Source of the DNA: Paraburkholderia fungorum | GTDB taxonomy: Bacteria > Pseudomonadota > Gammaproteobacteria > Burkholderiales > Burkholderiaceae | DNA: 64,000 nt | Assembly: GCF_900099835.1 (NCBI RefSeq) | Contig: NZ_FNKP01000001.1 | Span: 558,001-622,000, forward strand | Direction: 5' to 3' | Notes under the pieces: model-generated | Seen by the model: only the letters and a program-made list of their open reading frames with translations | What the model was told of the DNA's origin: nothing | Database searches by the model: none | Made by a program: the position numbers and the translations under genes | Shown: positions 17,669 to 23,541 of the stretch, in pieces | Position numbering within the stretch: the first letter of the stretch is position 1 | Layout of the letters: every line of letters starts with the position of its first letter

Positions 17669-18849
17669 ACCGGTTGCGCAGCGACTTGCTGCAAGCCGGC
17701 TTCGAGCCGGTCGAGATCCGCGTGCGAGTGCGCCGCCGACAGCGAAATGCGCAAACGCGACGTGCCGGACGGCACCGTGGGCGGACGAATGGCGGGCACC
17801 CACAGCCCCGCGCGATCGAGCGTGGCCGCGATGTCGAGCGTCGCATCGTTGGCACCGATGATCAGCGGTTGCACGGCAGTGTGCGAATCGACGGGAATCC
17901 ACGGGGTGGCTTTCAGCATCGCGCGCGTGCGCTCGATCAATTGCTGAAGATGCGCACGCCGTTCGTCGCCTTCCTCGCCGCCGATAATCCGCAAGCTCGC
18001 CGACACCGCGTGCGCCGCAGCGGGCACCGACGCCGTCGTGAAGATGTACGGACGCGCGCGCTGCACCAGCCATTCGATCACGGTCTCGTGCGCGGTAACG
18101 AACGCGCCCGAGACGCCCGCGGCCTTGCCGAGCGTGCCGATCGAAATGAGATTCGGCGAACGCAACGCGGCCTGCGCAACCGCGCCCCGTCCTTGCGGAC
18201 CGAGCACGCCGAAGCCGTGCGCATCGTCGACGATCAGCCACGCGCCGTGCTGTTCCGCGAGTTCCAGCAGACGCGGCAGCGGCGCGATATCGCCATCCAT
18301 GCTGAACACGGTATCGGAGACGATCACTTTTACTTCGGCGTCCGACGCGTCGAGCATCGCGCTCAACGCGTCCATATCGCAGTGCGGATAGATCTGCACG
18401 TCCGCGCGCGACAGACGCGCTCCGTCGATCAGCGACGCGTGATTCAGCGCATCGGAAAAGAGCGTCGTGCCGCGGCCCGCGAGCGCGGTGAGCGTCGCGA
18501 GATTCGCCATATAGCCGGTGCTGAAGTAGAGCGCGCGCGGGTTGTCGACGAAGCCGCCGGTGAACTCCGCGAGGTCGTCTTCGAGTTGTGCGTGCGAGCG
18601 CGAGTGGCCGCCGAGCAGGTGCGAGCCGCCGCTGCCCGCGCCATAGCGCCGCGCGCCTTCGGCGATGGCTTCGATCAGCAACGGATGCGCGGCCAGGCCG
18701 AGATAGTCGTTACTGGCGAAGCCGATCATCTCGCGGCCGTCGACGGTCATGTGCGCGGCGCACGGCGTGTCGGCAGTGCGGCGGCGACGGCGCAGCCCGC
18801 GTTCGTCGATCTCTTTCAGACCTTGCGCGAGGGTGTCTAGCAGATGCAT
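17665..18849 (-). CDS. bioF: 8-amino-7-oxononanoate synthase
   Basis: 394 residues. PLP enzyme condensing pimeloyl-ACP/CoA with L-alanine. Motifs: [83 protein letters not shown] and the Schiff-base lysine in [15 protein letters not shown]. Its ATG overlaps the bioA stop by one base and its stop overlaps the first possible bioD start. Biotin pathway second committed step; pimeloyl-forming genes (bioC/bioH or similar) are not seen nearby. Confidence 0.97.
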
Positions 18850-20210
18850 CAGCGCACCTCCGCGAGTGTGGCTTCGAAGGTGTCACGCGTGCGCGAGGCG
18901 AGCAGCGCGAGTTCTTCGTCATCGAGGATGTACGGCGGCATCAGGTACACCGTGGTGCCGATCGGGCGCAGCAGCAGTTCGCGTTGCAGCGCGTTTTCGA
19001 AGAAGCGGCGCGAGAAAGTTTTCGCGTGCTGCGCGTCGTCGATCACGGCGTCGAACGCGAAGATCGTGCCGCAGTTGCGCAGATTGCGCACTTGCTTGTG
19101 ATGGGCGAGAGGCGCGAGCGCGGCTTTCAGTTTCGCGGATTTCTGCGCGTTGACGGCGAGCACGTTGTCGCTCGCGAACAGGTCGAGCGTGGCCAGCGCT
19201 GCACGGCAGGCGAGCGGATTGCCGGTGTACGAGTGCGAATGCAGGAAGCCGCGCGCGGTGTCGTCGTGATAGAAGGCCGCGTAGATTTCATCGCGCGACA
19301 ACACGATCGACAGCGGCAGATAACCGCCGCTAATCCCTTTCGACAGACACAGAAAATCCGGCCAGATGCCTGCTTGTTCGCACGCGAAAAAAGTGCCGGT
19401 GCGGCCGCAGCCGACCGCGATTTCGTCGGCGATCAGATGCACGCTGTACTCGTCGCACAGCGCGCGCAGGCCGGCGATGTACGACGGATCGTGCATCGCC
19501 ATGCCGGCCGCGCATTGCACGAGCGGCTCGACGATCAGCGCGGCGATTTTCGTTGCGCGTGAGTCGAACAGCGCGCGAACGTGGTCGAGCGCGCGGCGGG
19601 CGACGTCGGCGGCGGATTCGCCGGGTTGCGCGAGGCGAGCGTCGGGGGACGCGACGACGTGCGCGTTGCGGATCAGCGGGTCGTACGCGTCTTTGAACAG
19701 CGCGACGTCGGTGACGCCGAGCGCGCCGATGGTCTCGCCGTGGTAGCTGTTGGCGATGCAGACGAATTCCTGCTTATCCGCGAAACCGCGATTGCGCCAT
19801 GAGTGGAAGCTCATTTTCAGCGCGATCTCGACGGCGGACGCGCCATCCGACGCGAAGAACGCATGGCCGAGCGTGTTGCCGGTGAGCGCGTGCAGGCGCT
19901 CCGCGAGTTCGATGGCCGGCTCGTGCGTGCAGCCGGCGAGCATCGCGTGTTCGAGGGTGTCGAGCTGATCTTTCAGCGCCGCGTTGATGCGCGGATTCGC
20001 GTGGCCGAACAGGTTGACCCACCAGGAGCTGATTGCATCCAGATAACGGTGGTTGGCGCGATCGTAGAGCCACGCGCCCTGTCCGCGCGCGACGGGGATC
20101 AGCGGCAGACGTTCGTGGTGCTTCATCTGGGTGCAGGGGTGCCATACGGCACGCAGGCTGCGGGCGACCCAATCTTCCGGGGCGACGGATTGTGCTGCTG
20201 AGTTTTCCAA
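18849..20210 (-). CDS. bioA: Adenosylmethionine-8-amino-7-oxononanoate aminotransferase (TTG start)
   Basis: 453 residues. Transfers the amino group of S-adenosylmethionine to KAPA. Family marks: [76 protein letters not shown] and PLP-lysine in [14 protein letters not shown]. The conserved WHPCTQ lies upstream of the first internal ATG, so initiation must be at the TTG at 20210, which has GGAG about seven bases before it. First gene of the biotin operon; its upstream region is the G+T-skewed segment. Start-codon choice may lower expression. Confidence 0.95.
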
Positions 20211-20755
20211 AGGGGTACTCCAACGGTGCTTTTTTGCCGCGTTTTTTGCCGCTGCGCGGGGGCTTTTTAGGGCCCTGTCAGGGACGATGCGCCTGGTTTT
20301 TGCGCGCGGCGCGCGGCTTTTGGCGGGCGTGCGGGGTCGAGATTAGCGGTTTATTTGGGGTTCTGCACTAGCTGTTGGAGGGGCTGTTTTCCATGCTGGG
20401 CGGGGGTTTGGCGATGTTTGGGGCAGGTGCGTTCAGTTCGGGTGGGAAGGTCGCTGATGGGCGGAGTTAGCGACGGCAAAGTGGTTGGACCTTATGGGGG
20501 AGGTTTGGGCCCTGCGGGCCGGCTTTTGGGGTTTTTGGTTTTTTTGGGGGTGTTGGTCTGTTTTTGTTTTTTGGGCTAGGGGGTGGGTTCTTTGCGGTGT
20601 TGGCTTTTTTGTGGCCACGGTGGTTTATTGGCGTTGCCGTTGTGGTCTTGGCTGTGTTGGCCTTTCCTTGCTTTCACGGTGGTCTATTAGCACTGCCCCT
20701 GTGCGGGGCGGGGGTTGAGCTTTTGTTGGCTGCGCCCTTTGGCGGTGTTCTTCGG
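20211..20755. other. G+T-skewed non-coding segment upstream of bioA
   Basis: From about 20220 to 20755 the plus strand is extremely poor in A and C, with long T and G runs (TTTTTTTGGGGG, GGGCTAGGGGGTGGG). Frames exist in it but they encode only Gly/Val/Leu/Phe/Trp low complexity with no consistent ribosome site, so I call no gene. The bioA promoter must lie at its left edge. No BirA-type operator could be identified. The right half carries degenerate direct repeats annotated separately. Confidence 0.7.
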
Positions 20756-20820
20756 GGTGTTGGCCTTTCCTTGATGTCACGGTGGTCTATTAGCGTTGCC
20801 CCTGTGCGGGGCGGCACTCA
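20616..20820 (+). repeat. Three degenerate direct repeats abutting the inverted-repeat element
   Basis: CACGGTGGT(T/C)TATT(G/A)GC begins at 20616, 20675 and 20778. The second and third copies extend to CACGGTGGTCTATTAGC, then (AC/GT)TGCCCCTGTGCGGGGCG, and are also preceded by GGCCTTTCCTTG. The third copy is the outer part of the left inverted arm. The first is the most degraded. Confidence 0.8.
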
Positions 20821-20966
20821 CTTTCTTTGCCGCCGCAAAGAAAGTAAGCAAAGAAAGCGGGCTCACACCGCTAACCATTAAGCGGGTCCCCTGGCTTGGA
20901 GGGGGCAGTGGTGCATCTGGAATCGGTGCTCCCGCGCACTCCGCGTTCGTGACAAGGCAGTCATTC
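20756..20966 (+). repeat. Left arm (211 bp) of a large inverted repeat
   Basis: Matches the reverse complement of 21336-21546 over its whole length with no gap; I counted about 15 mismatches by eye. It contains GGTGTTGGCCTTTCCTTGAT at the outer end, the hairpin at 20820-20845, AAGCGGGCTCACACCGCTA, GGGTCCCCTGGCTTGGAGGG, and ends at CAGTCATTC. The outermost ~60 bases are also a copy of the adjacent direct repeat. No coding frame is preserved between the arms. Confidence 0.88.
20820..20845. repeat. Perfect hairpin inside the left arm
   Basis: ACTTTCTTTGC-CGCC-GCAAAGAAAGT, an 11-bp perfect stem with a 4-nt loop. The right arm carries the same hairpin around 21465-21490 with the stem extended to 14 bp by compensating CTTA/TAAG ends. 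The same AAAGAAAG word recurs just beside it as a direct repeat. Confidence 0.85.
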
Positions 20967-21335
20967 GCTCCCACTCCGCACTACGTGCGTCGCGGTGGGG
21001 TCTGCTTGGGAAACCAGCGGTTTTTGTTCCGCTGCCGAGGGACCGTTGCCCCGCATTCGTGATGACATGCAATGGAGCAATGCGAACACGCCAGAACGCT
21101 GAGGGAGAAGAAGCAGCAAGTCTTCTCCGCACTAAAGGCAACTAACTGACCGCACGCGTCGAACGGCCCGATTGGCGTGCGGTGCACGGTAGCTGGTGAA
21201 GTGCGGGAAGGGGGGAGGATTGATGCGGGAATTGCTACGCGGTTGTTTGCGACCGGACGATAGAAGTATTGTGGGCGCCAGGGATATCGATTGGTTTGAT
21301 GAACGACCGCGACGGCGCGCGGAGCGTCGCCGGAA
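20967..21335. other. Central 369 bp of the inverted-repeat element
   Basis: Non-repetitive core between the arms. Frames are short and lack start signals. It has mixed composition, unlike the G+T-skewed left flank, and contains several purine-rich stretches (GAGGGAGAAGAAGCAGCAAG). I see no transposase fragment, tRNA or known RNA family. Confidence 0.5.
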
Positions 21336-21546
21336 GAATGACTGCTGTGTCACTGACGTGGAGTGTGCGGGGGCACCGATTCCAGATGTACCACCGCCCC
21401 CTCCAAGCCAGGGGACCCGCTTAAGAGCTAGCGGTGTGAGCCCGCTTTCTTTGCTTACTTTCTTTGCGGCGGCAAAGAAAGTAAGTGCCGCCCCGCACAG
21501 GGGCAGAGCTAATAGACCACCGTGACATCAAGGAAAGGCCAACACC
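21336..21546 (-). repeat. Right arm (211 bp) of the large inverted repeat
   Basis: Reverse complement of the left arm at about 93% identity, same length. It ends 36 bases before the stop codon of the minus-strand secreted hydrolase gene, so any transcript of that gene reading through would include it. No target-site duplication is evident at the outer ends. Confidence 0.88.
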
Positions 21547-21582: not shown

Positions 21583-22905
21583 CTAGTTCCGACTAGCAAT
21601 AGCCCGCTGCCCTTCATCGGCAGCAGCAGAATCAGCACCCCGACCGCCGCCATCCGCCGTCTGCGAAGACTCCTTCCCCCAGACCACCGAATTATCCACC
21701 GCATACAACCGGCAAGGCACAGCACTCTGCTTCTGGCAATTCGCCACCGCCACGGACATCGGATCGTCCCCGCCTTCAGCCCACGACCACGCCCCCGAAT
21801 CCGACACGGCAAACGCGCGGCTCGGATACTGATGCAGGAAGTTCCGATATCCCGCGCGACCCGCTTCGTCGACATACGGCACGGCGTCGACCGCATCGAC
21901 CGCAGCAAAGCCGCTCGCGCTCGGCAGCGACGGATCGGACACCTGATACCGCACGCCCGTCGGCATGCCTACCCGCGCCAGAAACGCCTCGACAGCCGGC
22001 CACCACACATGCACGCCATCCCGATCGCCGACCAGGCGGTGCGCGTCGTTCTTGTAGCTGCCGTAATCGACCATCTTCGCGCTCGCACCGTGCGCGCCAA
22101 ACGCGGCGTACATGCCCGCGACCAGCGGCGCATTCCAGACCGAATCGTTATCGCCGTACATCCACAGCGACGGCACCGTGGTCTTCTCGCCGTAAGCGCC
22201 AAACGCGCGCGTCAGATTGCCCTGCCAGTCGGTACACGCATCCTGCCGCAAACCGCCCGAGAAATTGATCAGTGCCCGCACGCCGGGCGCGGCTTCGGTG
22301 CCGTAGGCCATCGTCGCCAAACCGCCGTGCGATGTGCCGGCGACGACGATATGCGTCGCATCCACGTAAGGCTGCTTCGACATGTAGCTGATCGTTGCCG
22401 CCACGTCGCCGGCCTGACCGAGGCCATTGCGTTCGACGTCGCAGCCATCCTGTTCATACGCGCCGTCGGAATGGCCGAAGCCCTGGCGGTTCGGTGCGAC
22501 CACCACATAGCCACGACGGACGAATTCGCGTGCGAACGGCAGCGGATCGCTGCGTTCCTGCGTACGCGGATCGCCAGGAATCTTGCCGTGGTTGAACACG
22601 ATCATCGGAAACGGGCCTGGGCCGTCCGGTTTGTAGATCGTGGTTTCGAGCGTGATCGTGCCGTCGGCATCGACCGGCACGCGGATGATCTTTTCGTTGA
22701 GGCTGGCCGTGGGCAGATAGACGTCGTCGAGCGCGATACGCGGCACGTGTGCGCGTGTCAGCGGACCCGGCTGGTTGTCGGCGAGCGAAGCGGTGCGCGC
22801 ATCGGCGAGAGAGGCGGCGAGCGGATCGGCATGCGCGACTGCGACAGCGCACGTAGCCGCTGCACAGATCACCACACACTTCGTCAGAACCTTGCTGAAC
22901 ACCAT
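21583..22905 (-). CDS. Secreted alpha/beta hydrolase (dienelactone hydrolase / S9-like fold)
   Basis: 440 residues from ATG 22905, which has GAGGTGGG about nine bases upstream and begins a signal peptide (KCVVICAAATCAVAVAHA, cut before DPL). The mature protein has an alpha/beta-hydrolase core: IVFNHGKIPGDPRTQ, FVRRGYVVVAPNRQGFGHS, nucleophile Ser in VVAGTSHGGLATMAYG, acid in MYGDNDSVWN, and catalytic His probably in KNDAHRLVG. The C-terminal ~120 residues (AAVDAVPYVDEAGRAGYRNF to the end) form an extra domain seen in some periplasmic relatives. Substrate unknown; ester or peptide hydrolysis in the periplasm is likely. Monocistronic. Confidence 0.82.
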   Translation of the reverse strand: MVFSKVLTKCVVICAAATCAVAVAHADPLAASLADARTASLADNQPGPLTRAHVPRIALDDVYLPTASLNEKIIRVPVDADGTITLETTIYKPDGPGPFPMIVFNHGKIPGDPRTQERSDPLPFAREFVRRGYVVVAPNRQGFGHSDGAYEQDGCDVERNGLGQAGDVAATISYMSKQPYVDATHIVVAGTSHGGLATMAYGTEAAPGVRALINFSGGLRQDACTDWQGNLTRAFGAYGEKTTVPSLWMYGDNDSVWNAPLVAGMYAAFGAHGASAKMVDYGSYKNDAHRLVGDRDGVHVWWPAVEAFLARVGMPTGVRYQVSDPSLPSASGFAAVDAVDAVPYVDEAGRAGYRNFLHQYPSRAFAVSDSGAWSWAEGGDDPMSVAVANCQKQSAVPCRLYAVDNSVVWGKESSQTADGGGRGADSAAADEGQRAIASRN

Positions 22906-23541
22906 TGACGCACCCACCTCTAAAACCTGCCCTGAACACCGTGCGCCGTTCGCCGGAATATTGCTGACGTTTTCCTTTCGTCCGCATTTTCGACAAACAA
23001 AAACACACTCGCGTACGGAGTGCGCTATGCGCACGCACGCTAATCGAGATCGCACGGGATGAACCCAAACGGCCGACGCGACCCCACGCGCCGATGATGA
23101 GCGCCACCTTGCTGCCTGGGACCGCCGCCGAACCCACACTCTCTGGTGAACGGCAGGACCCCCTGCGCATTTTGCGGAGCCGCTATGGAGCGCCTCTCGC
23201 AATGTGACGTCATGAAGCTACGGCCTCATCCTGGCACGACAATTTTGTTTTGTGCAATCAAGGAGAACCCGCGACGAAAAATTTGCCGCAAGCTTTTTCA
23301 TTCGATGAGCCTACGGGCCAGCAGGGCGCGGCGGTGATTGGCTGCACGAAGTAATCGAAGGAAAGGTGCTGGCTGTGGTGTCGAGCCAACACGAAAAAAG
23401 GCCCTGATATCAGGGCCTTATGTGAATGCAGAAGGAAGGGTCAGGGTCGTTGCGGGACGCGCGGCGCTAACGAACAAGGCGCAATGCGATCAGCTTGTCG
23501 AACGAAATATTTGGAAACGCTCGCAGAGGCGGTCGTCGCGA
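22906..23541. other. Intergenic region with one terminator
   Basis: Apart from the hairpin at 23393-23420 I see no gene. An AAGGAG at about 23261 is not followed by a usable start codon. The part near 22960-23000 is relatively AT-rich and may hold the promoter of the secreted hydrolase. Confidence 0.4.
23393..23420 (-). terminator. Rho-independent terminator of the YchJ-type gene
   Basis: AAGGCCCTGATATCAGGGCCTT is a perfect 22-base palindrome; on the minus strand it is followed by T4-T6. It lies about 120 bases beyond the YchJ-type stop. Confidence 0.8.

Follow-up and report, generated by a model that had tools for sequence, protein, structure and literature searches.

The window analysed here is a 64,000-nucleotide stretch of the Paraburkholderia fungorum genome (G000:C1:558001-622000), in which a palindromic element of 791 bases lies between the aminotransferase gene bioA and a gene for an alpha/beta hydrolase. 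Its two arms (20756-20966 and 21336-21546), of 211 nt each, align as collinear, gapless inverted copies, a match that far exceeds chance. The original prediction had described the arms in these terms, with about 15 mismatches, and a recount gave exactly 15 and a core between the arms of 369 nt; the nested hairpin that it had placed in each arm, with a lengthened stem on the right, was likewise present, at 20817-20848 with one stem mismatch and at 21454-21485 as a perfect 14-bp stem. Both neighbouring genes had also been said to touch the element. This is accurate for the hydrolase gene, whose stop codon (21583, minus strand) is 36 bp from the right end, but not for bioA, whose start (20210) is 545 bp from the left end; the element thus adjoins the 3′ end of a gene, and not bioA. 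The name bioA is that of the original prediction, the domain evidence being PF00202. Farther out toward bioA are two additional outer units, in each of which the outermost 50-58 nt of the arm recur in decayed form. The features of the locus are:

18849..20210, minus strand: flanking gene bioA, aminotransferase class III (PF00202), with its 5′ end facing the element
20596..20644, plus strand: decayed outer unit, arm positions 1-51, 80%
20654..20711, plus strand: extra outer unit, a further copy of arm positions 2-59, 93%
20756..20966, plus strand: left arm, outer end 20756, inner end 20966, inner type X
20798..20812, no strand: short G+C hairpin of the left arm, GCCCC-loop-GGGGC
20817..20848, no strand: nested hairpin of the left arm, stem ACTTTCTTTGC/GCAAAGAAAGT
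20967..21335, no strand: core, in which conservation among the other copies compared is confined to the two ends
20967..21070, plus strand: X module, the core end on the bioA side, conserved in other species
21293..21335, minus strand: Y module, the core end on the hydrolase side, conserved in other species
21336..21546, minus strand: right arm, repeating the left arm in inverted form at 93% identity; its inner type is Y
21454..21485, no strand: nested hairpin of the right arm, its stem extended by paired ends
21490..21504, no strand: short G+C hairpin in the right arm, which resembles a terminator if the minus strand is read inward
21583..22944, minus strand: flanking alpha/beta hydrolase gene, start uncertain, gene end 36 bp from the element

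The segment at 20300-20755 has a strong T and G bias on the strand read inward. A T+G-rich inward-read strand beside the arms was also seen across the flanks of 60 elements (120 sides), the mean T-A skew of the first 50 nt being 0.77 as a raw, uncontrolled value.

Arm matches were present in 31 of the 59 genomes searched, comprising 29 of 35 from Paraburkholderia (the present genome included) and 2 of 24 others; among the 35 same-genus genomes, those lacking a match were G009, G010, G011, G024, G033 and G034. Across the genus the arm is shared over its outer 118 nt, beyond which several genomes show no match. Twelve arms of about 200 bp or more occur in the P. fungorum genome, at eight loci, four of which are pairs. 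Two of these loci (C1:3213288 and C1:3403992) are 95% identical across 680 bp, outside of which nothing but two short stretches of outer unit (57 and 76 nt) matched between their flanks. This 680-bp element has been copied as a unit with defined ends between otherwise unrelated flanks, as expected of a MITE, a look that copying by conversion would give as well. The earlier proposal of a dispersed, structured family of MITE- or REP-like character was right in kind. Tandem repetition is found at two loci of G022 (L049 and L051), where 137-bp units of the inner arm stand on both sides of the palindrome, and in G062 (L243, 399-1604), where arms recur with a 253-bp period on both sides of one palindrome; the same period is seen in L235 (1268-1901). 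Eighteen plasmid records (9 from Paraburkholderia, 7 from Caballeronia and one each from Burkholderia and Variovorax) carry arm matches at a total of 327 places, none of which covers 80% of the arm, and no annotated features were noted near the match in the three plasmid records examined. The arm had no match among phage records. The exact hairpin pattern, which inexact forms escape, was found in one of 249 other genomes of the order, six of them from the same family and none from the same genus.

We compared loci from the present genome, loci from relatives, most of them chosen from the best hits to the window arm, and bioA loci, a choice that biases the sample toward likeness to the window arm. 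All 61 neighbouring pairs of opposite arms face inward and none outward, with hairpin centres 363-1997 bp apart; these represent 60 distinct elements (L143 repeats L057), besides which 13 arms stand alone, in part at the ends of contigs. The cores are polar, with module X (~105 nt) at one end, module Y (~45 nt) at the other and a variable middle. In the longer stem, scored in 45 of the 60 left arms, 97.4% of cells are paired compared with 95.3% in shuffles, and two-sided changes account for 28 cells compared with 8.4, a value reached in none of 500 shuffles. A single column pair contributes 22 of these 28 cells, further pair types number 7 against 6.9 in shuffles, and the shuffle control is weakened by related rows.

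Some cores carry genes. Four palindromes of G022 enclose a gene for a 150-aa protein, and one more in G132 does so at the site represented by locus L018. The loci with this gene are L050, L049, L051/L119 and L123 (G022), L255 (1117-1569, minus strand), L293-L298, L300, L301 and L364. Among the best 80 of 109 places with relatives of the gene in named genomes, arms lie on both sides of 7 and on one side of 3, and in most other genomes searched the relatives lie outside palindromes. In a tree of 85 rows, built from a short alignment on which the palindrome label requires four changes, 13 of the 14 palindrome-labelled rows fall within one supported group of 15 (100/97), and this lineage of the protein appears to be mostly palindrome-borne. 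Among the five G022 copies dN/dS is about 0.11-0.34. The protein is predicted to form three helices (pLDDT 64.5); its fold had no match in the PDB at E 0.001 or less, its best PDB sequence match was a ribosomal protein (E 0.029), and as a query against Pfam, PHROGs and NCBIfam it returned no family. A lytic polysaccharide mono-oxygenase (LPMO) gene (PF03067, E 6.4e-36; L238, 1036-1782, minus strand) occupies the core of G137 at the site represented by locus L019. Insertion sequences of three families (Mutator/IS256-type, IS481-like and DDE_Tnp_1) were found inside cores in G022 and G027 (L054, L270 and L276) and inside one arm in G061 (L252), and those nested in or beside cores differ between genomes.

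When grouped by flank similarity the 60 elements resolve into 22 sites, several of which are shared between species. The bioA gene is present in 117 genomes, and the 29 others most similar in bioA were examined: 18 carry an arm pair at this site (two with one arm of ~140 nt), one has a full and a partial arm, four have remnants of about 75-82 nt, four are cut by contig ends (three with an arm) and two have none. At the L018 site (20 stretches from 18 genomes) 13 stretches have two or more long arms, four have partial, single or cut arms and three have none. Occupancy at the L019 site (20 stretches from 19 genomes) is sparser, with a pair in three genomes (G107, G088 and G137), arms at two contig ends of the close relative G062, a 56-bp remnant in one stretch and 14 armless stretches, in 13 of which the flanking conserved blocks are just 0-123 bp apart. 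Both of these blocks end in a stop codon toward the element, so the L019 element lies in a convergent spacer. The junctions at unoccupied L019 sites are too diverged to define a target duplication; among the other sites, element junctions are alike at site 2 and too diverged for judgement elsewhere.

Arms resemble those at other sites of their own genome more closely than their counterparts at the same site in other genomes. Mean arm identity is 0.862 for different sites of the same genome, 0.785 for the same site in different genomes and 0.748 where both differ. Fifty-two arms come from genomes that hold several elements and have an orthologous site that is also occupied; for 45 of these the closest non-partner arm belongs to the same genome, for 3 it occupies the orthologous site and for 4 it lies elsewhere. 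Between G000 and G006 orthologous arms are 0.884 identical and non-orthologous arms 0.881, compared with 0.93 and 0.90 within the two genomes, and in 20 of the 26 genome pairs the advantage of orthologous over non-orthologous arms is 0.02 or less; four of the six pairs with an advantage above 0.02 involve G025 (for example G006-G025, 0.898 versus 0.822). The cores follow the same pattern: with full-length homology defined as at least 80% of both cores in common, over all 60 cores, it was found for 25 of 59 comparisons between sites of one genome, 5 of 228 at the same site in different genomes and 2 of 1482 between different sites of different genomes. G030 has a single core type at five sites (cores 97-100% identical), at two of which other genomes hold different cores. 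Core orientation relative to the flanks also varies between genomes, by 17:1 at site 0 (20 elements), 4:2 at site 1 (6) and 2:1 at site 4 (4), the remaining elements at these sites not being scorable. The inner half of the G007 arm at sites 3 and 4 is unlike the type found in G014, G022, G006, G012 and G030. Closer likeness within genomes than at shared sites is the pattern of concerted evolution, and, judged from these sequence comparisons, gene conversion through the arms is its likely cause, with re-insertion at favoured sites as the main rival. The original prediction had taken the absence of indels between the arms as a possible sign of constraint; homogenisation within genomes explains it better, given how little closer orthologous arms are in those 20 genome pairs.

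The elements favour gene 3′ ends. Gene orientation was best judged in a single genome, G027 (three contigs), in which at least 40 arms are present (40 of 75 candidates scored) and 17 pairs and 8 single arms were taken as loci. The 16 pairs with both neighbours called comprise 9 in convergent, 5 in tandem and 2 in divergent spacers, compared with 27 tandem, 8 divergent and no convergent among 35 other spacers of the same loci; the excess in convergent spacers (9/16 versus 0/35) gives a Fisher value of 3.8e-6, and avoidance of divergent spacers was not significant (2/16 versus 8/35, p 0.47). Five of the six single arms with genes called on both sides lie in tandem spacers and one in a convergent spacer. 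Distances from pair to stop codon are 90 bp or less in 17 of 23 cases, and no 5′ end comes closer than 80 bp. In a count over several genomes (n = 41, L057 and L080 excluded), 13 elements lay in convergent spacers, 21 in tandem and 3 in divergent ones, and 4 were unknown, compared with 2, 18 and 8 convergent, tandem and divergent among 28 other spacers; as this count repeats orthologous sites and misses genes, the G027 count is preferred, and both counts rest on a home-made gene caller that misses genes.

As to the suggestion that the element might be a structured RNA, the arms show a relation to one RNA family, Rfam RF02421, but the similarity is weak and the window arms themselves score below its cut-off: the outer halves gave 34.1 and 32.5 bits and a third match in the window 20.6, the gathering score being 44. 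A solitary arm relative between aceF and lpdA (L024, 2094-2169; G000:C1:2550593-2550668) scored 82.1 bits, and high-scoring RF02421 copies lie at this position in the four other genomes checked (G027, G025, G022 and G019). In its available sections the paper on this family reports an aceF/lpdA neighbourhood for the RT-PCR-tested candidate transcript Bp1_Cand684 (PMC3521395). Terminator-like sites over 1.5 kb number 6, compared with 3.3 (sd 1.6) in shuffles, and three of them are in the arms (one inward, two outward). The presence of hairpins where genes end, and of a solitary relative within an operon-like gene pair, may point to a role at the RNA level, a reading that is tempered in that convergent spacers are the safest places for any insert too.

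The gene encoding a RAYT-like protein in the P. fungorum genome (L269, 1571-2281, minus strand; G000:C1), the only PF01797 match there, was considered as a mobiliser and rejected. The best arm match within 4.5 kb around it is 16 nt, and it has, as in G008, GAVQ (a relative, L100, has NHVH) in place of HxH, the catalytic motif of HUH enzymes according to the available text of PMC3733652. It scores 53.8 against NF047646 (curated cut-off 80), and PF01797 also occurs in G009-G011, genomes without arms.

Taken together, the element is a member of a family of large palindromes, common across Paraburkholderia, that occupy shared places, mostly beside gene 3′ ends, and we think it probable that the copies within a genome are homogenised by gene conversion through the arms. 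In this scenario an element would once have entered a spacer downstream of a stop codon and would then have been inherited in place, while homologous recombination between arms, putatively of the RecA type, would copy whole elements or cores between sites and paste the donor core in either orientation. Arms that are inverted copies of each other allow a donor core to enter either way round, which fits the observed core flips. Solitary arms would be remnants, and where transcription of a gene runs into an arm, the conserved hairpins may act at the RNA level, through 3′-end protection or weak termination. A bolder version, which we regard as possible but doubtful, is a slot-and-cassette system in which fixed gene-end slots with arms as recombination handles would receive cores, including real genes such as the 150-aa lineage and LPMO, transferred between slots either way round, the whole set of a genome being overwritten together. 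Counting against gene conversion, the same pattern could arise from loss and re-insertion, and conversion was not caught between strains; orthologous arms are also somewhat closer overall than arms differing in both site and genome, and five core pairs are common to a site.

Loss and re-insertion are the substance of a competing explanation that we hold to be unlikely, though a serious contender, in which a non-autonomous transposon (a giant REPIN or MITE), served by a putative enzyme, is lost and re-inserted at favoured 3′-end sites in each lineage and the likeness of copies reflects recent transposition. Near-identical whole elements at unrelated sites, the five G030 copies and the L019 site, empty in many relatives and filled in few, all agree with it, as does the layout of inverted pairs and solitary remnants, which is that of REPINs as given in the available part of PMC3116915. 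It requires, however, re-insertion with alike junctions at sites common to several genomes; no target duplication is definable at the diverged L019 junctions, the transposase genes between or within arms belong to nested insertion sequences of three different families, and the sole PF01797 gene of the present genome has neither a nearby arm nor the HxH motif. Selection on a functional RNA or terminator element, with hairpins maintained site by site to end or protect transcripts and likeness due to constraint, is improbable. The position past stop codons and between convergent genes speaks for it, together with the two-sided changes by which the stems keep pairing, concentrated as these are in one column pair, and the relative kept between aceF and lpdA in the neighbourhood reported for Bp1_Cand684 (PMC3521395, available sections). 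Constraint alone would nevertheless not give genome-specific arms such as the G007 inner half at sites 3 and 4, terminator-like sites are few, and insertions do least harm in convergent spacers as well. The inverted layout is all that speaks for an inverted duplication that arose locally at bioA and has no relatives, a reading to which we assign practically no probability: arm relatives occur in so many same-genus genomes, and at eight loci of this genome alone, that the search for copies in Paraburkholderia refutes it, and the recent inversion or duplication envisaged in the original prediction is contradicted by occupation of the bioA site in many other species.

If the preferred reading of conversion through shared arms is correct, these palindromes would be a clear example from bacteria of non-coding repeats that are dispersed over fixed sites and evolve in concert, an issue brought up for REPs decades ago; gene conversion in REP evolution was reportedly already raised in a 1988 paper, to go by its title. 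Concerted evolution would be directly testable in Paraburkholderia with these palindromes, and if cores are pasted between sites, small genes could be multiplied and distributed without a transposase of their own. At a practical level, some draft contigs break inside the palindrome repeats, as seen in G062 and G025, and gene annotation could mistake reading frames that run through the arms for small proteins.

Among the papers listed in the literature searched, none describes this palindrome family in its title or abstract opening, and the closest known systems each share part of its organisation. REPINs, according to the available text of PMC3116915 and PMC8049555, consist of a pair of inverted repeats, each bearing a hairpin, with a spacer of lower conservation between them, and are extragenic and long-lived, with solitary remnants; an inverted hairpin-bearing pair, a variable spacer, an extragenic position and solitary remnants are found here also. 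As defined by Bertels and Rainey (2011, PMC3116915, available part), a REPIN is a REP doublet with 16-mer ends 71 or 110 bp apart and is linked to a RAYT, whereas the palindromes described here have ~211-bp arms, measure about 500-800 bp or more in total and in some cases carry genes, and a RAYT link was not found in the P. fungorum genome. BIMEs and REPs are likewise palindromic and extragenic, and the roles proposed for REPs, termination and mRNA stability, are of the kind considered above, but GTAG/CGTC REPs measure 20-40 bp against the ~211 bp of these arms (PMC3733652, available part). TIRtrons and other TIR families are also repeated families with longer terminal inverted repeats; the repeats of TIRtrons flank a tyrosine transposase gene in the available account (PMC3733652), and none was seen in the cores whose genes were listed. 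The source paper of RF02421 (Bp1_684, a Burkholderia sRNA candidate) treats it as one sRNA, the word 'repeat' being absent from the available portion of its text (PMC3521395). Although the window arms score under the gathering cut-off of that family, it matches the outer half of the arm and has a high-scoring copy between aceF and lpdA.
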